From Comamonadaceae bacterium (GTDB lineage Bacteria > Pseudomonadota > Gammaproteobacteria > Burkholderiales > Burkholderiaceae_C): 32,003 bases of DNA. Positions within the stretch are counted from its first letter, which is position 1. The number at the start of each line of letters is the position of its first letter. Location: contig CANFJA010000004.1 in NCBI GenBank assembly GCA_947447235.1, positions 1-32,003 on the forward strand. Direction: 5' to 3'. Below are positions 6,375 to 14,239 of the stretch, one piece after another. Below the pieces are notes generated by a model that was not told where the DNA came from, did no database searches, and saw nothing but the letters and a program-made list of their open reading frames with translations. The translations under genes were made by a program, and so were the position numbers.

Positions 6375-7105
6375 GTGGCACCATGAATTCAATGAGCAAC
6401 AAGGACCAGCCACTGCTTCAAGTGGCCAATGTCAACCAGTATTACGGCGGCTCACACATCTTGCGTGATGTGAGTTTTGAGGCCCACTTAGGCCGCATCA
6501 CCGTGCTGTTGGGCCGCAACGGGGTAGGTAAAACCACACTGCTGAAATCACTCATGGGTTTGGTGCCTATTCGCAATGGCAGCATGGCGCTCAATGGTCA
6601 AACCATTGAACGTGCCACGCCCTATGAGCGCGCCCGTGCAGGCATTGGCTATGTGCCACAAGGTCGTGAAATATTTGCGCGTCTCACCGTTGAAGACAAT
6701 TTGCGCATGGGGTTGGCGACACAGCCCGCGGGTACGGCCATCCCAACCGAGTTGTTTGAGCTGTTTCCCGTGCTCCAACAAATGCTGCACCGCCGAGGGG
6801 GGGACTTGTCGGGTGGCCAGCAACAGCAGTTGGCCATTGCGCGTGCACTGGCCTCATCGCCCAAATTGTTGGTGTTGGATGAGCCGACCGAGGGCATTCA
6901 GCCCAGCATCATCAAAGACATCGGCCGTGTGATTCGCATGTTGGCCGGTCGAGGTGACATGGCGATCTTGTTGTGCGAGCAGTACTACGACTTTGCCGAG
7001 GAACTCGCCGACGAGTACTTGGTGATGGAGCGTGGCGAGGTGATTGCGCGAGGTGCGGGCCGAGACATGCAAGCCAACGGCGTGCGTCAACTGGTGGCGA
7101 TTTAA
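6371..7105 (+). CDS. urtE: urea ABC transporter ATP-binding subunit UrtE
   Basis: GRNGVGKTTLLKSLMGL, LSGGQQQQLAIARAL, LLVLDEPTEGIQPSI; overlaps urtD stop. Start could be internal (6383 or 6392). Confidence 0.93.
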   Translation: MSGTMNSMSNKDQPLLQVANVNQYYGGSHILRDVSFEAHLGRITVLLGRNGVGKTTLLKSLMGLVPIRNGSMALNGQTIERATPYERARAGIGYVPQGREIFARLTVEDNLRMGLATQPAGTAIPTELFELFPVLQQMLHRRGGDLSGGQQQQLAIARALASSPKLLVLDEPTEGIQPSIIKDIGRVIRMLAGRGDMAILLCEQYYDFAEELADEYLVMERGEVIARGAGRDMQANGVRQLVAI

Positions 7106-7124
7106 ATCGGCTGCCAGTCAGCGA

Positions 7125-7958
7125 TCACATGGCCCAAATACGCGGGGCTGTGTCACCCATCTGCCACAGGCCTCGACGCCAGGCAGCCCACACGGCGCGC
7201 AGCAACTGCTGGGCGGGCTCCACCAAGGGCGAGAGGGTGCGCAGCACCACCACACGCGGGTGTGGCGAGGTGACGCCGGCTTGCACGCCTGCTACCGATT
7301 CGCCCAATGCTTCGCGGGCCAAGCTGAGTGCCAGTTCGCGCCGCTCTCGGTTCAAATCGGCACCGCAGGCAAACACCAGGGTGGCCATGCACCTCTGGCC
7401 TGCCAGCCCCAAGGGGCCATTGAGCAAGCGAAGGTCTTGCGCGTCAATCAGTCCACGCTCTAACCACACACCTTTGATTTCCAGGTGCTGCTGCAGCTGG
7501 CCGTGTTCAAACGGCAAATTGGCGTTGGGCAAGCCCAGTGCGGTGATGTCCCAAGCCATCAACTCGGCGCTGTCTGCCATGTCGAAGCTGGCTTGGTTGA
7601 GCCCATGGCAGCCGTTGTAGGCGATGGTCTCGAGCGGCAACCACTCCAGTCGGCTGTGTTCACCCAATCGCGCGTGAACTTGCTGTGTGGCCAAGCCGTT
7701 TTCGCTGCGGTAAAAACGGGTGGCTCCTGGAGTGGTGATGAGGCCGTGGCTGTGGGCGTCGAGCTGAACCTGGATGTTCAAGGTATCGCCTCCGACCAGG
7801 CCGCCAGGTGGGTGAACCAAGACGTTGTGGCACACACGATCACCCTCCGGATAGAGGCTTTGCAGCACCCGCAAGGGGCCTTGGTGCTCAAAACGAACAA
7901 CCGTGCGAGGTCCCGAGGTGGCATAAGCAAGAGAGAGTTTGGCGTGCCAACCGATCAT
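7125..7958 (-). CDS. ureD: urease accessory protein UreD
   Basis: MIGWHAKLSLAYATSGPRTVVRFEHQGPLRVLQSLYPEGDRVCHNVLVHPPGGLVGGDTLNIQVQLDAHSHGLITTPGATRFYRS...; UreD/UreH family. Confidence 0.95.
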   Translation of the reverse strand: MIGWHAKLSLAYATSGPRTVVRFEHQGPLRVLQSLYPEGDRVCHNVLVHPPGGLVGGDTLNIQVQLDAHSHGLITTPGATRFYRSENGLATQQVHARLGEHSRLEWLPLETIAYNGCHGLNQASFDMADSAELMAWDITALGLPNANLPFEHGQLQQHLEIKGVWLERGLIDAQDLRLLNGPLGLAGQRCMATLVFACGADLNRERRELALSLAREALGESVAGVQAGVTSPHPRVVVLRTLSPLVEPAQQLLRAVWAAWRRGLWQMGDTAPRIWAM

Positions 7959-7985
7959 GCGGTCAGGATATCTGAGTCGCAGGCC

Positions 7986-8195
7986 TCATGCGTCAGGATC
8001 GTCGGTGTTTTTATTTTTTCTTTTGAGGAAAATTTTGTAGAGGGCATAGACCGCGAGCACGGCAGCCAACCCACACACCACCACCTCAGCCAACGTCATC
8101 TCTTGAACGAACCACTCGAGATAGTCGTAGGTCGAGAGTGGCGTGTAGACGTCGGGGTTTTCTTGCTTGTATTTTTGGTAAGCGCCGTTGTCCAT
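7986..8195 (-). CDS. 69-aa single-TM hypothetical protein, last gene of the ion-channel locus
   Basis: MDNGAYQKYKQENPDVYTPLSTYDYLEWFVQEMTLAEVVVCGLAAVLAVYALYKIFLKRKNKNTDDPDA; one hydrophobic span with a basic/acidic tail; 20 nt after the upstream channel gene. Confidence 0.65.
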   Translation of the reverse strand: MDNGAYQKYKQENPDVYTPLSTYDYLEWFVQEMTLAEVVVCGLAAVLAVYALYKIFLKRKNKNTDDPDA

Positions 8196-8215
8196 AGGGG
8201 TAGGTCCGTGTGAAT

Positions 8216-9181
8216 TTAGGATTGTTTGTTGGCCGCTGCGATGTGCTTTTCTTCTTCCATCTGTGTGACGATGGATTGCACTTGTTCGTCGGACATGCCG
8301 AGTTTTGCTTGCATCAATTTGAGTTTGGCTTGCTCTTCTTCGGTGACCACACCGTCTGCCAGCGCAGAGCGCACTTCCATTTCATACATGGCCTGGCGTC
8401 GTTCAACTTGCGCGGTGTAAGCCGTTGCGACCACACCGGTCAAGATGGCGGCCAGTGCGATGGACAAGATTTGCGTGAGGATGACCAGCATCGTTCCTAA
8501 AAATGTTACCGGGTCCACATTGCCCCAGCCCGAGACGATGGTGATGACAAACCAGTGCATGGCCGCGGGAATAGAGGGAAAGACGTCGGGCTGCTCATGG
8601 CCTTCGATGATGTAGATCAGCGAGGAAAACAGCAAGCAACTGATGAACAGTAAGAAGACAGCCGAAGAGAAAGAGTCTTTCTCGGCTTTCACGGCGGCCA
8701 CCATGTCTTCAAAGGCACTGTTGTAGCGTGAGAGTTTGAAAATTCGCATCAGCCGAAACATGCGCAGCACGCGAAGATCGGCGCCAGGGAGCAGCAGCTG
8801 CAAGTAAAACGGCACTGTGCTGACAAAGTCGATGATGCCGTAGAAGCTGAATACATATTCCTTGCGACCTTGCCATGCTGTGCCGCCACTGTGGCTGTAT
8901 TTTTCGCTGTACGACCAAACGCGCAACACAAACTCAACCGAGAACACGGCCACGCTGAAGACGTCAAAAGCATGGAACTCGCGTTCGAAAGCCTCATGGA
9001 TTTCAGGTACCGACTCCAAGATGATGCCAATCACATTGGCCACCACCAAAAGGGCGATAAAAATTTCAACAAAGTGGCTGTACTTGTCGGGTACGGCACC
9101 TTCCATGATTTCGTAGGTACGGCGCTTGATACGCTGGAGCATGGAGGGGGTGGGAGCTGCTGGATTCATGATGGCGCTCAC
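8216..9181 (-). CDS. 6TM voltage-gated-like ion transporter (ion_trans family) with non-canonical filter SGWGN
   Basis: S2 FSVAVFSVEFVLRVW, S3 IIDFVSTVPFYLQL, S4 DLRVLRMFRLMRIFKLSRY, pore VITIVSGWGNVDPVT, C-terminal DGVVTEEE. Confidence 0.88.
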   Translation of the reverse strand: MSAIMNPAAPTPSMLQRIKRRTYEIMEGAVPDKYSHFVEIFIALLVVANVIGIILESVPEIHEAFEREFHAFDVFSVAVFSVEFVLRVWSYSEKYSHSGGTAWQGRKEYVFSFYGIIDFVSTVPFYLQLLLPGADLRVLRMFRLMRIFKLSRYNSAFEDMVAAVKAEKDSFSSAVFLLFISCLLFSSLIYIIEGHEQPDVFPSIPAAMHWFVITIVSGWGNVDPVTFLGTMLVILTQILSIALAAILTGVVATAYTAQVERRQAMYEMEVRSALADGVVTEEEQAKLKLMQAKLGMSDEQVQSIVTQMEEEKHIAAANKQS

Positions 9182-10089
9182 TCGATGGCAGATGATTTGT
9201 TTTTGGCGCGCAGCATCATGGCTTCAACTTGCTCGTCGGTGAGCCTGTAGTGCGCTTGCAAGCGCTTGAGGGTGTCTTGTTCTTCGTCGGAGACATTGCC
9301 GTCTGAGAACACTTCACGCAACTGTGCTTCAAAGGCGGCTTTCTTACGCGCGACTTGGTTGGAGAAGGCCGACGCCACGATACCCGTCATGATGGCGGCC
9401 ATACACACCCCGAGGAAACCGGTGATGAGTGCAATGGTCTCACCGGCTTTGGTCATGGGTTCGACGTTGCCGTAACCTGAGGTGATGGTGACGATGGCCC
9501 AGTAAATGGAGTGCGGGATGGTGCCAAAAAACTCGGGCTGATGATGGCCTTCGGCGAAGTGCATCAACGATGCAGAAACGATGGTGGCGATGGTGAGTAA
9601 GAAGACGGCCGAACCAAAGGCTTGACGCTCTGAGTAAACGGCATGAAACAAATCTTGCAGGGCGGTGTTGTATTTGGACAGTTTCAAAATCCGCAGCAGT
9701 CGCAGCACACGCAAGATGCGCAAATCAAGTGCGGGGAAGAACATGTGCAAGTAATGCGGCATGGTGGCAAAGAAGTCGACCAAACCAAACGGGCTGAACA
9801 TGTACTGGAATCGACCTTTCCATGAGCCACCGTTCTCGCTGTCGTACTTTGCGCCTAAGGACCAGACGCGGGCGATGTATTCGACCGTGAAGAACATCAC
9901 ACTCCAGAACTCGAGCTCATGGAAAAACTCTTTGAATTCAGCGTGAATTTCAGGGACGGAGTCAAGAATCACCGCCGAGCAGTTGACCAACACCACCACG
10001 GTGATGAGCCACTCGACGTAGCGACTGGCCGTGTGATTGGGCGAGCCGTCTAATATTTCCATCAGAGTGGTCTTGAAACCTTTTGTCAT
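9178..10089 (-). CDS. 6TM voltage-gated-like ion transporter with non-canonical filter SGYGN
   Basis: S2 WSVMFFTVEYIARVW, S4 DLRILRVLRLLRILKLSKY, pore AIVTITSGYGNVEPMT, C-terminal DGNVSDEE; 4-nt overlap with the next gene. Confidence 0.88.
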   Translation of the reverse strand: MTKGFKTTLMEILDGSPNHTASRYVEWLITVVVLVNCSAVILDSVPEIHAEFKEFFHELEFWSVMFFTVEYIARVWSLGAKYDSENGGSWKGRFQYMFSPFGLVDFFATMPHYLHMFFPALDLRILRVLRLLRILKLSKYNTALQDLFHAVYSERQAFGSAVFLLTIATIVSASLMHFAEGHHQPEFFGTIPHSIYWAIVTITSGYGNVEPMTKAGETIALITGFLGVCMAAIMTGIVASAFSNQVARKKAAFEAQLREVFSDGNVSDEEQDTLKRLQAHYRLTDEQVEAMMLRAKNKSSAIE

Positions 10090-10136
10090 TGCGATGGTCT
10101 AACGAAATAAATGAATGGAAAGAATGAATAAGCAGC

Positions 10137-10163
10137 AGCGGTCACGCGCCACGCGTGACCGCT
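10137..10163. promoter_or_regulatory. perfect 12-bp-stem hairpin in the intercistronic gap between two channel genes
   Basis: AGCGGTCACGCG-CCA-CGCGTGACCGCT; no strong T-tract on either side, so RNA processing/stabilising element or weak attenuator rather than a classic terminator. Confidence 0.6.
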
Positions 10164-10200
10164 TGGTCAGGAGATCTTTAAAAAAACCCGCCGATGTTTA

Positions 10201-11844
10201 TCAAGCCTTACCTTGAATTTTGTGCCACAAATCAAGTTCGTTTGATGACAGTCGTGCATGTTGTTGCGCGGCTTCTTCAAATTTCGCTTCATCGATTTGC
10301 ACGCCGAGTTGCCGAATTTGCCCCAGTAATACTTTGTAGTGTTCCACGGCCAAGGCTGGGTTTTCGGCAATTTTGTGGATCGGCAGTGGATTGCGCTCTT
10401 CGAGCTCATGCTCTTTGATCACGACTTCGATCAATTTGTTCACTTCTTCCACCGTCAGGTGCAATCGTTTCGCTTCTGAACGAATGATGGCCGCTTCATC
10501 ATCACTGATGTGACCATCTTTCAAAATGGCAAACAGGTTGGCTTTCAACTGATCGCGTTCTTTGACCAATTCATCGCTGAAGGCCGAGGCCAACAAAGCC
10601 GCTGGGATAGCAAAGATACCAATGCCCATCAGCGCCAAGATACTGGTCATGGCGCGTCCCATCGGTGTGACGGGTGAAATGTCGCCATAGCCCACAGATG
10701 CCAAAGTAATTACCGCCCAGTAGATAGAGGTCGGGATGTTTTCAAACTTCTCGGGCTGCGCATCGTATTCAAACAAGTAGCCCAAGCTCGCGGTCAAGAC
10801 CAAGAGCAGCATCATGATGAAGGTGGCGGCTCCCATGACCGGCCATTCGCGCACGACGACCTTCACCAGCACGGCGGTGGCATCGCTGCCGCGTGTGAGT
10901 TTGAGCAGTCGCGCCAAACGGAAGACCCGCAAGAAGCGCAAGTCGATCAAATGGTGCAAAAACACTTCCAAGAAGAAGGGCAAGATCGCCAAAAAGTCGA
11001 TGAATGTGGATGGTGACTTGGCTTGTTTGAGTCGTCCAAGGAACGAGCCTTTGTAACCTGGCTCTTCTACGCAAGAGTAAATGCGCATGCAATATTCAAC
11101 GGTGAAGATGGCAACCGCTACCGCATCTAGGATCACAAATTGCAGATGCAAGATGTAGTTGATGCTCTTGACCGATTCCAAAATCACGGCCAGCACAGAC
11201 AAGATCACCCACACACCAATGAACACTTCAAAAATGTGTTGCATGGTGCCGCCGTAGTTGCTTGGGAACACCAAGGCGTGCACTTTTTGGCGGAAGGTTC
11301 GGTTTTTGTTGAGCTCTTTGAACTCGGAGATGGCGGGAATCAAGACGCGGAACAGCTTCATGATTCGCAACAGTCGCAGGAATCGCAACACGCGCAGATC
11401 AATGGGAATGAAGGCTTGCAAATAGAAAGGCGCAACAGCCAGGAAGTCAATGATGGCAAACGGGCTGGTCACGAAGCCCAAGCGTGCGTTTTTGCGGGAT
11501 TTGAATTCTTCGTCTTCAGGCGCTAAATAAAAGCGCAGGACATATTCAATGGTGAACACGGCCACTGAGAAGATGTCGAAGAATTCAAACCACATACGGT
11601 AGGGCTCGAACACAGCAGGCACGTGCTCGAACATCAACGTGAACAAGTTGATGATGATCAGGTAGCTGATCCACTTGTCTAAGTCTTTTTGAAAGTTACC
11701 GGGAATATTGGGATCAAGCAACCATGAGTACAACCACTTGCGCATGGGCAAATTGCGGTCGATGTTGGCCTCATGGTCTTGGCCCAGGATGGCTTGAACG
11801 TCGAGATCTTCTAAGAATTTATCTTGTTTGGATTGTGTTTGCAT
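10201..11844 (-). CDS. tandem voltage-sensor ion channel: pore-less VSD (4TM) fused to a 6TM K+-type channel
   Basis: First S4 DLRVLRFLRLLRIMKLFRVL followed by about 40 aa linker and a new S1; second S4 DLRFLRVFRLARLLKLTRG; single pore WAVITLASVGYGDISPVT; C-terminal DGHISDDE. Confidence 0.87.
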   Translation of the reverse strand: MQTQSKQDKFLEDLDVQAILGQDHEANIDRNLPMRKWLYSWLLDPNIPGNFQKDLDKWISYLIIINLFTLMFEHVPAVFEPYRMWFEFFDIFSVAVFTIEYVLRFYLAPEDEEFKSRKNARLGFVTSPFAIIDFLAVAPFYLQAFIPIDLRVLRFLRLLRIMKLFRVLIPAISEFKELNKNRTFRQKVHALVFPSNYGGTMQHIFEVFIGVWVILSVLAVILESVKSINYILHLQFVILDAVAVAIFTVEYCMRIYSCVEEPGYKGSFLGRLKQAKSPSTFIDFLAILPFFLEVFLHHLIDLRFLRVFRLARLLKLTRGSDATAVLVKVVVREWPVMGAATFIMMLLLVLTASLGYLFEYDAQPEKFENIPTSIYWAVITLASVGYGDISPVTPMGRAMTSILALMGIGIFAIPAALLASAFSDELVKERDQLKANLFAILKDGHISDDEAAIIRSEAKRLHLTVEEVNKLIEVVIKEHELEERNPLPIHKIAENPALAVEHYKVLLGQIRQLGVQIDEAKFEEAAQQHARLSSNELDLWHKIQGKA

Positions 11845-11852
11845 GGCAGACC

Positions 11853-12443
11853 TCAGAATTCAAATTCAGCAACTTTGATGGCGTAGCCACCTTTGTCACA
11901 TACCGACAAGCGCAGCTGCATCTTGTAGTCAATGGCGTCGGTTTCAACCAACTGCGACGCTACAAAGGGCGTGGCTGAACCAGGAGGGGTGGGCATGAGA
12001 TCTTCCAACAAGATTGCGCCCATCAAGGTGCGGTCTGAAGGAACGCAAGCCGCCACGAAGTGGGGGGGCGCGTTGAAGAAGGGATTGATTTGGTCTTTCA
12101 ATTCCGTTGAGGTGCTCATGATGTGAGCCAAACATGCGCCCCACGTGCCGGGTGTGTCCGCCTTGGCATTAGCCGGTGGCTTGACGCCACCTTGACAAGC
12201 AGGATGCTGAGTGTCGGATTCAAAGCGTGTGGTGCCGGTTTCGGTCAACCAAGCCACCCATGCCTCGCCATTGCTTTTGCTGGTTTCGGTTTTGATGGCC
12301 TCTTTGTAGTTGACAACACCCAACAGGGTGACAGCAATCACAACCAAAACCAAAAAGGCCATAAAGAGTTTGTCGGTCGAGCTGGGGCCGAGTGGTCGGC
12401 TCTCGGATGCGTGGTCTGTTGAAGATGCCATGGGGATCGCCAT
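11853..12443 (-). CDS. membrane-anchored hypothetical protein with Cys-containing extracytoplasmic domain
   Basis: TM FMAFLVLVVIAVTLLGVVNY near the N-terminus, then about 145 aa with four Cys; 8 nt upstream of the tandem-VSD gene. Start may be 12431. Confidence 0.7.
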   Translation of the reverse strand: MAIPMASSTDHASESRPLGPSSTDKLFMAFLVLVVIAVTLLGVVNYKEAIKTETSKSNGEAWVAWLTETGTTRFESDTQHPACQGGVKPPANAKADTPGTWGACLAHIMSTSTELKDQINPFFNAPPHFVAACVPSDRTLMGAILLEDLMPTPPGSATPFVASQLVETDAIDYKMQLRLSVCDKGGYAIKVAEFEF

Positions 12444-12501
12444 TCAAGTAAAGGAAATCCGACGCGTCTAGCGAGGTAGAGAGCCGGGCGAAAGGGTTTT
12501 G

Positions 12502-12532
12502 ATGATATTCGCAAATTTTGCGAATTTGTCAA
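12502..12532 (-). promoter_or_regulatory. putative promoter of the ion-channel operon with dyad in a 19-bp spacer
   Basis: Minus strand TTGACA (12532-12527), 19-nt spacer, TATCAT (12507-12502); perfect dyad ATTCGCAAA-T-TTTGCGAAT at 12507-12525 occupies the spacer. Confidence 0.55.
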
Positions 12533-12584
12533 TTTAACGCTTGAAATTGCATGTACTCACATGGAGCAGTGAGTAGTTAAGGAT

Positions 12585-12616
12585 TCAAAAAACTGTTTTA
12601 TCAAACAGTTTTTTGA
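12585..12616 (-). terminator. inverted repeat downstream of the ABC permease gene (candidate terminator)
   Basis: TCAAAAAACTGTTT-TATC-AAACAGTTTTTTGA, 14-bp perfect stem starting 12 nt past the minus-strand stop; AT-rich, so termination strength is uncertain. Confidence 0.5.
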
Positions 12617-12627
12617 TGTGTGAAATA

Positions 12628-13395
12628 TCAGTGATTTTGCGAGCTGCGGTGAGCCCACGCCGTGGTGTGTTTTTCGACGTAACTGAACAACTCATACATC
12701 ACCATGGCCATGGCACCCACCACAACCAGACCGGCAAAGGCCAGGCCCATTTGCATGGCGGATCCTGCAGAAATCAGCAAATAGCCAATGCCTTCGTTGG
12801 CAGCGGTCATCTCTGACACCGTGGTGCCCACAAAGGCCAGTGTGATGGCCACTTTGAGGGACCCATAAAAGTAGGGCATGGAGCGTGGCAGGCCCACTTT
12901 GACCAGCACGTCCCAGCGCTTGGCACCCAAAACGCGCAACACGTCTTCCAGCTCAGGCTCCAAGGTGGCCAAGCCTGTGGCAATGTTGACCATGATGGGA
13001 AAGAAGCTGATCAAAAAAGCGGTCAAGATGGCAGGTCCCACACCGATGCCAAACCACACCACCAAGATGGGCACAAAGGCTGCTTTTGGCAAGGCGTTGA
13101 AACCCGTCATCAAGGGGTAGACCGCGGCGTAAGCAGTGCGTGAGCTGCCAACGACAAAGCCCAACAACACGCCCACCACAATGGCAATGCCAAAACCCGC
13201 CATGGTGACCCAGTAGGTGCGCCAAGCATGGGCGGCAATGACCTCGCGAAACTCCACCATTTGTTCCCAAATCCGCAATGGGCTTGGAAAGACAAATTCA
13301 GAGACAGAAAAAACAGTGCACAAGCCTTGCCAAGAGATCAGGGTGAGGATCAGCAGCGCCCATGGCGACCAACGTTCGATTTGTTTTTGATTCAT
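12628..13395 (-). CDS. ABC transporter permease, SsuC/TauC/NrtB type
   Basis: WITH-type permease: EFVFPSPLRIWEQMVEF..., NALPKAAFVPILVVWFGIGVGPAILTAFLISFFPIMVN. Confidence 0.9.
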   Translation of the reverse strand: MNQKQIERWSPWALLILTLISWQGLCTVFSVSEFVFPSPLRIWEQMVEFREVIAAHAWRTYWVTMAGFGIAIVVGVLLGFVVGSSRTAYAAVYPLMTGFNALPKAAFVPILVVWFGIGVGPAILTAFLISFFPIMVNIATGLATLEPELEDVLRVLGAKRWDVLVKVGLPRSMPYFYGSLKVAITLAFVGTTVSEMTAANEGIGYLLISAGSAMQMGLAFAGLVVVGAMAMVMYELFSYVEKHTTAWAHRSSQNH

Positions 13396-13414
13396 GGTGC
13401 TTGATTCTTGTTGT

Positions 13415-14239
13415 TTATGGCTCTATGACTGCGGTGGTTTTTCGAATGGCGCCGATGTGCCCGCGCAGTTCATGGACGATGTCGGTGAACTCGGGCGTGT
13501 AAGTCACCTCCAAGTCGCGCGGACGGGGCAGATCGATGTTGCGTTTGACAACAAAGCGACCGGGACTCTTGCTCATCACATACACCGTGTCGGCCAAGAA
13601 AACCGATTCACGCAAGTCATGTGTGACCAAGATGACATTGAACTTTTGCTCTGTCCATAAGTCGCGCAAGGTGCACCAGAGTTCTTCACGTGTGAAGGCG
13701 TCGAGTGCGCCAAACGGTTCGTCAAGCAGCAGCATCTTGGGTTCATGGATCAGCGCACGGCAAATGCTGGCACGCTGTTGCATGCCGCCTGAGAGCTGCC
13801 AAGGAAATTTGCGCTCATACCCGCCCAAGCCGACCGTCTGCAAAAGCTGGATGGCGCGTGCCTCGTACTCTGCCTTTTTGGCTTTGAAGTTGGAACGGTA
13901 GGGTTCCACAATTTCCAGCGGCAGCAACACGTTGTCAAGCGTGGTGCGCCAAGGCAGCAGCGATGAGGCTTGAAAAGCCATGCCACTGATTTTGAGAGGA
14001 CCGTTGACTGCTTGACCGTCGACCAAGATCTCGCCTCGGCTTGGTTTGCGAAGGCCTGTGGTGAGCTTCATGAAGGTAGATTTGCCACAGCCCGAGGGGC
14101 CCACAATGGCGATGAACTCGCCTTGCTTGACCTGTAGGTTGATGTCTTCTACCGCGAAGTGGTTTTGTGCCAGCAGCTCGTCGTTGTAGGCGAGCCAGAC
14201 ATTTTTGAATTCGACGAAGTTGTCAGCAGAGGCAGTCAT
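13415..14239 (-). CDS. ABC transporter ATP-binding protein, SsuB/TauB/NrtD type
   Basis: Walker A GPSGCGKST, LSGGMQQRASICRALI, MLLLDEPFGALDAFTRE. Confidence 0.93.
   Translation of the reverse strand: MTASADNFVEFKNVWLAYNDELLAQNHFAVEDINLQVKQGEFIAIVGPSGCGKSTFMKLTTGLRKPSRGEILVDGQAVNGPLKISGMAFQASSLLPWRTTLDNVLLPLEIVEPYRSNFKAKKAEYEARAIQLLQTVGLGGYERKFPWQLSGGMQQRASICRALIHEPKMLLLDEPFGALDAFTREELWCTLRDLWTEQKFNVILVTHDLRESVFLADTVYVMSKSPGRFVVKRNIDLPRPRDLEVTYTPEFTDIVHELRGHIGAIRKTTAVIEP

Follow-up and report, generated by a model that had tools for sequence, protein, structure and literature searches.

A conserved gene pair from a freshwater Comamonadaceae bacterium is predicted to encode a voltage-gated K+ channel with two voltage sensors per subunit

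In a 32,003-nucleotide stretch of the genome of a freshwater Comamonadaceae bacterium (contig CANFJA010000004.1, positions 1-32,003, assembly GCA_947447235.1; hereafter the window), a run of minus-strand genes encodes several voltage-gated-like ion channels. We consider it fairly probable that this locus holds two modules, of which the first, the gene pair CYS-TAN, would specify a voltage-gated K+ channel of new architecture, and the second would consist of the paired channel genes K1 and K2. At the centre of this proposal are TAN, whose product combines two voltage-sensing domains (VSDs) with a single pore, and CYS, a gene that lies directly upstream of TAN across several genera.

11853-12443, minus strand: CYS, 196 amino acids, a protein with a single transmembrane (TM) helix; an alternative start is ATG 12431.
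10201-11844, minus strand: TAN, 547 amino acids, a tandem-VSD channel.

Hydropathy analysis of TAN revealed four TM helices followed by six more and one pore loop, and Pfam placed two Ion_trans (PF00520) matches on the protein (E = 4e-46) together with an Ion_trans_2 match at residues 345-422 only. Given this succession of four and six helices with one P-loop, and the lone Ion_trans_2 match, we read TAN as a first sensor, VSD1 (residues ~55-170), placed before a second sensor, VSD2, and a single pore (~203-425) with the filter TLASVGYGD at 380-388; a C-terminal helical domain carries a DGxxSxxE motif (443-450). VSD1 is 37% identical to VSD2 and 43% identical to the sensor of K2, which suggests that the additional sensor was derived from the same channel family. 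In sequence searches the second half of TAN matched human KCNQ, Kv2 and Kv4 channels with E values down to 2.7e-24, and the top Foldseek matches of the TAN model were KCNQ and Kv4. The AlphaFold monomer (pLDDT 78, pTM 0.63) places the helices where they were expected.

Across an alignment of 45 TAN proteins, the S4 charges of VSD1 (151, 154, 157, 160, 163 and 166) and of VSD2 (303, 306, 309, 312, 315 and 318) show no more than two exceptions at any one position. The charge-transfer centre, made up of Phe and Glu in S2 and Asp in S3, is invariant in both sensors (F97/E100/D133 in VSD1 and F247/E250/D283 in VSD2), as is the K+ filter S383-V384-G385-Y386-G387-D388. Because its gating charges and charge-transfer centre have been kept, VSD1 appears to be constrained like a working sensor. 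The same features bear on the alternative that VSD1 provides a permeation path of its own, carrying an Hv1-like proton or omega current, which would make TAN a dual conductor of protons and K+. Like VSD-only proton channels, VSD1 does possess a full S1-S4 with gating charges and a charge-transfer centre of its own; however, these features are equally conserved in VSD2, as they are in ordinary Kv sensors, and we regard a conducting VSD1 as very unlikely.

TAN, K1 and K2 all belong to the known Ion_trans superfamily. TAN shares with Kv channels (KCNQ, Kv2, Kv4; PF00520) the S1-S6 core with a charged S4 and the K+ filter (T/S-V-G-Y/F-G-D/N, here SVGYGD), and these channels give its best sequence and fold matches, but it departs from the Kv plan of one VSD per subunit by having two complete VSDs, the additional one standing before the six-TM unit, and by having a dedicated partner gene. 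Two-repeat TPC and four-repeat Nav/Cav channels resemble TAN in carrying more than one VSD per polypeptide, yet a TPC has two pore domains per polypeptide, whereas each TAN subunit joins two VSDs to a single pore domain with just one P-loop and S5-S6. VSDs without pore helices of their own, such as VSD1, are known from Hv1, TMEM266 and the voltage-sensing phosphatases; in Hv1 a VSD without a pore is the entire channel, whereas VSD1 is fused to the second VSD and pore of a six-TM channel. The open-access literature was searched for bacterial channels with tandem or extra VSDs, for ion channels of Limnohabitans and for unusual filters without a relevant result, and a 2024 review of voltage sensors makes no mention of tandem VSDs (PMC13095418). 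A one-pore subunit with two intact VSDs and an orphan partner was likewise not found in this literature and could be a new design.

Along with the architecture of TAN, the proposal draws on the persistence of its pairing with CYS. Among 84 genomes of the window's genus, TAN-A occurs in 72 and CYS in 72, and CYS lies directly upstream of TAN in 72 of its 77 matches; the remaining five are on contigs without an adjoining TAN-A start, and two of these are fragments. Within a sample of 120 family members, CYS together with full-length TAN is confined to this genus. High-scoring matches, mostly to the tandem channel, were found in 26 of 150 Polynucleobacter genomes, and every TAN-A locus read in that genus has CYS directly upstream, with surroundings that differ from those in the window's genus. 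A wide scan of 85,462 species genomes yielded 80 loci (79 testable), which by their titles come from Polynucleobacter, Limnohabitans, Ramlibacter, Polaromonas, Rhodoferax and Paucibacter metagenome-assembled genomes (MAGs), two Methylococcaceae and one Rhizobiales isolate. CYS was directly upstream in 68 of the 79 testable TAN loci, five of the eleven misses being of the TAN-B subtype, and all six genomes that were checked whole, including the Rhizobiales and a Methylococcaceae, contain a CYS gene. The pair persists amid unrelated surroundings across genera, Methylococcaceae and Rhizobiales included, and the notion of CYS-TAN as a conserved unit is upheld in the genus, in Polynucleobacter and in the wide scan alike. 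In a quickly built tree of TAN, the Methylococcales sequences nest among those of comamonads, which suggests transfer, although MAG titles are imperfect. As for spread on plasmids, every match in the plasmid collection falls short of 80% coverage of TAN. The best of them, an ion transporter from a Gemmobacter aquarius plasmid (WP_159082572.1; L228:3626-5194), is a tandem-VSD homologue in which the S4 of VSD1 has lost charges.

CYS itself has no relative by sequence in Pfam or the PDB. Hydropathy analysis gives it one TM helix, with a conserved acidic residue at the helix start, and 68-69 of 69 proteins retain the cysteines C83, C104, C133 and C182. Its AlphaFold model is confident (pLDDT 94.6) and consists of an N-terminal helix of 50 residues plus a small alpha/beta domain, for which no significant fold match was found in the PDB or in viral fold libraries. 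CYS is an orphan family, and on the strength of its linkage to TAN we propose it as a putative dedicated auxiliary subunit of TAN; the invariant cysteines and Pro/Ala-rich linkers suggest that its domain lies on the periplasmic side. As a single-pass, putative channel associate it recalls KCNE and the BK gamma subunits, the single-TM auxiliaries of Kv and BK channels, but differs from them in having no sequence or fold kinship to any solved protein. A type IV pilin or pseudopilin was also considered, as suggested by the long N-terminal helix, the sheet and the acidic residue at the helix start. This identity was dropped because the cleavage-site Gly is unconserved, being present at the matching place in just 17 of 46 proteins although Asp/Glu24 is kept, and because no pilin was among the PDB fold matches listed by Foldseek.

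Several points weigh against or limit the case for TAN and CYS forming a joint channel. A few TAN genes (e.g. L184, L189 and L200) have no CYS directly upstream, nor has the Gemmobacter plasmid homologue, and CYS is therefore perhaps not strictly needed. The linkage of the two genes could reflect co-regulation instead of a complex. The close agreement of the CYS and TAN distance matrices (r = 0.89, against 0.23 for the best of 2000 shuffles) speaks for the pair, but the comparison ignores shared species history, and the charges flanking the TM helix of CYS do not decide its orientation by the positive-inside rule. The TAN model is of moderate quality, with a poorly modelled filter, and the AlphaFold predictions are of monomers. 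TAN genes without CYS would fit a reading in which TAN works alone as a K+ channel and CYS is merely a co-transcribed envelope protein of independent function, as would the lack of any CYS relative that tells its function. Yet CYS adjoins TAN across families and surroundings, which is unusual for unrelated products, and we find a solitary TAN rather doubtful.

In the CYS-TAN channel that we propose, TAN would form a tetramer with one K+ pore and eight sensors, the latter because each subunit carries the extra charged VSD1 before its VSD2-pore unit. Depolarisation would move VSD2 and open the pore; VSD1 would tune or steepen the response, or add a second voltage range; and CYS, with its four-cysteine domain probably in the periplasm, would bind TAN as an auxiliary subunit that sets gating or assembly. 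If each subunit does carry two charged sensors, the channel is a natural experiment on sensor-pore coupling, and asks whether a second attached sensor steepens, shifts or independently gates a channel. A bacterial channel with a one-helix partner, if borne out, would furthermore offer a simple model for auxiliary subunits, which have hitherto been studied mainly in animals.

The putative second module follows TAN on the same strand.

9178-10089, minus strand: K1, 303 amino acids, a six-TM channel with the filter TITS-GYGN.
8216-9181, minus strand: K2, 321 amino acids when read from GTG, a six-TM channel with the filter TIVS-GWGN.

K1 and K2 each gave one Ion_trans match (E = 1e-28 and 3e-25, respectively), and the S4 charges and charge-transfer centre of both six-TM proteins are intact. 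They differ from Kv channels in the filter: in K1 (TITSGYGN) and K2 (TIVSGWGN) the pore-helix Trp stands one residue closer to GYG or GWG than in TAN and Kv, the missing residue shows as a gap in HMMER alignments (K1 against Kv2.1), and neither protein has a TVGYG filter with all coordination layers. Judging from known K+ filter structures, a channel short of one coordination layer should select poorly for K+ or else act as a silent or modulatory subunit. Because their filter is one residue shorter, K1-K2 are probably not K+-selective; they would be either poorly selective channels or silent or modulatory subunits, and may act as a heteromeric partner pair or as a separate cation channel whose filter has one K+-coordinating layer fewer. 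Such shortened filters would probe how many coordination layers K+ selectivity requires.

Within the genus, K1 occurs in 55 genomes and K2 in 57. K2 is the immediate downstream neighbour of K1 in 54 of 58 matches, and the two are also found without TAN-A (e.g. G123, G128, G144, G146 and G178). One filter residue has been lost relative to Kv channels and to a K1-like gene that adjoins CYS-TAN in locus L161 and has the canonical filter TTVGYGD, as would be expected if K1 and K2 were decayed, non-functional Kv duplicates rather than functional partners. The filters are, however, near-invariant in 23 loci each (K2 variants being TI(V/I)(S/A)-GWGN), the S4 charges and charge-transfer centres have been kept and K1 and K2 remain paired, all of which makes decay most unlikely. 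Given the canonical K1-like gene of L161 and a K1 (TSGYGN) without K2 in L199, we infer a history that these loci suggest, namely a canonical ancestor, then a shortened filter, then duplication. The C-termini of K1 (9178-9300) and K2 (8216-8460) resemble TerB-like helical domains, K2 having weak Pfam matches to TerB and DjlA. A role in a defence system was considered, but PADLOC gave no more than weak matches of the K1/K2 C-terminus to the candidate PDC-S48.

Further features of the locus bear on how these genes are transcribed.

10137-10163, minus strand: the TAN-K1 hairpin, a 12-bp RNA stem, candidate terminator or attenuator.
12586-12617, minus strand: an A/T-rich hairpin with a T-run upstream of CYS, candidate terminator of the upstream operon.
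7986-8195, minus strand: TM69, 69 amino acids, a single TM helix, found in close relatives only.
7125-7958, minus strand: ureD, encoding a urease accessory protein, a neighbour that adjoins the channel genes in part of the genus.

The original prediction had described five minus-strand open reading frames, from CYS to TM69, and their spacing, and all were confirmed in position and length: the successive gaps from CYS to ureD are 8, 111, -4, 20 and 27 nt. The start codons of K2 and CYS are uncertain, and an in-frame ATG at 9169 as the start of K2 would turn the K1-K2 gap from -4 into +8. The 12-bp hairpin (10163-10137) stands in the 111-nt gap between TAN and K1. At the same site, relatives hold hairpins of differing sequence in which 98% of stem cells pair (12 sequences), and four of nine pairs show two-sided changes, a result that exceeds almost every shuffle and every slid control. 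Some relatives (L072 and L212) have an unmistakable terminator there, with a GC stem and a T-run, and in other relatives the gap is just 7-15 nt. The T-run of the window's own hairpin is weak (GCTGCTTATTC), so that some transcripts may read through it. Between CYS and the ABC permease gene upstream of it there is a strong hairpin with a T-run (z = -5.7). No hairpin was found in the 27 nt before ureD (z = 0.1), in agreement with the original prediction. Both hairpins and the shortened K1/K2 filters had been missed by the original prediction, and the single transcription unit that it envisaged does not agree with the covarying TAN-K1 hairpin; separate transcripts for CYS-TAN and K1-K2(-TM69-ureD) would be the simpler reading. 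Rfam gave no match in 7000-13500, and a promoter scan found fewer sites than expected by chance. Directly before the K1 start codon (10090-10110, minus strand), most close relatives share a conserved motif, TTCGTTAGACC(N)TCGC, which stands where an obvious Shine-Dalgarno sequence would be expected.

The transcript structure also bears on whether the five genes form one multi-subunit system for excitability or ion flux, tied through ureD to urea, ammonium or pH. Speaking for such a unit, the genes share a strand and have short gaps, the last of them hairpin-free, and in 35 genomes of the genus ureD follows the channel genes at a distance of no more than 2.5 kb. It is placed elsewhere, however, in 28 genomes having both, and the covarying hairpin separates TAN from K1. 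Moreover, K1-K2 is optional: it is missing beside CYS-TAN in part of the genus, at all Polynucleobacter loci read and at many other loci, and is in turn found also without CYS-TAN (e.g. G123). TM69, which has one TM helix by hydropathy and, like CYS, no Pfam match over the cut-off, is found just in the window's close relatives. We thus hold a five-gene unit to be unlikely. Several distinct voltage-gated-like channels and one candidate accessory protein (CYS) are nevertheless supported, and the earlier interpretation as a whole is partly supported.

On this reading, TM69 and ureD are neighbours rather than core parts. The gene after TM69 has a UreD Pfam match (E = 7e-45), and urtABCDE lie on the plus strand, converging on it. 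Neither ureD nor urt shows the conserved linkage expected of a urease or urea-uptake operon, and with CYS-TAN in unrelated neighbourhoods in other genera the suggested tie to urea is weak and would be one of genomic neighbourhood, not of a conserved functional unit. ureD is the last gene of its strand, converging on urtE, so no further urease gene directly follows it; the ureD-urtE order recurs in relatives. In one lineage (L069:10980-12365 and L070:5141-6547), a gene between K2 and ureD encodes a ZIP-like membrane protein of 461-468 amino acids that is interrupted by a cyclic-nucleotide-binding domain.

Channels of a further type adjoin the cluster in close relatives. BacNaV (NavMs/NavAb), to which TAN, K1 and K2 do not belong, stands beside it in, for example, L224 (12709-13569; E = 3e-72 to a solved family member) and is absent from the window; in the genus, BacNaV is present in 47 of the 84 genomes, a few copies (2-3) occurring in some. 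It is possible, and we put it forward tentatively, that an undescribed K+ channel class (an eight-sensor tetramer with an auxiliary of new fold), a heteromeric non-K+ channel K1-K2 and the BacNaV of relatives together make up an excitability toolkit of freshwater bacteria. That freshwater bacteria with small genomes carry voltage-gated channels so densely (K+ and K+-like types, joined by Na+ types in relatives) prompts the question of which electrical signalling these cells employ. At three loci (L224:11387-15179, L174:10809-15172 and L226:7211-11606), a DUF4337 gene follows the cluster, an oppositely oriented Kv-type gene with a canonical filter encodes 343 amino acids, and the BacNaV gene overlaps a second tandem channel, TAN-B, by 4 nt, forming a coupled gene pair of Na+ and K+ type channels among six voltage-gated channels in ~9 kb. 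On other contigs, the source genome of the window also carries BacNaV and a further Kv-like TAN relative (G000:C3:26309-27106 and G000:C134:2050-3201).

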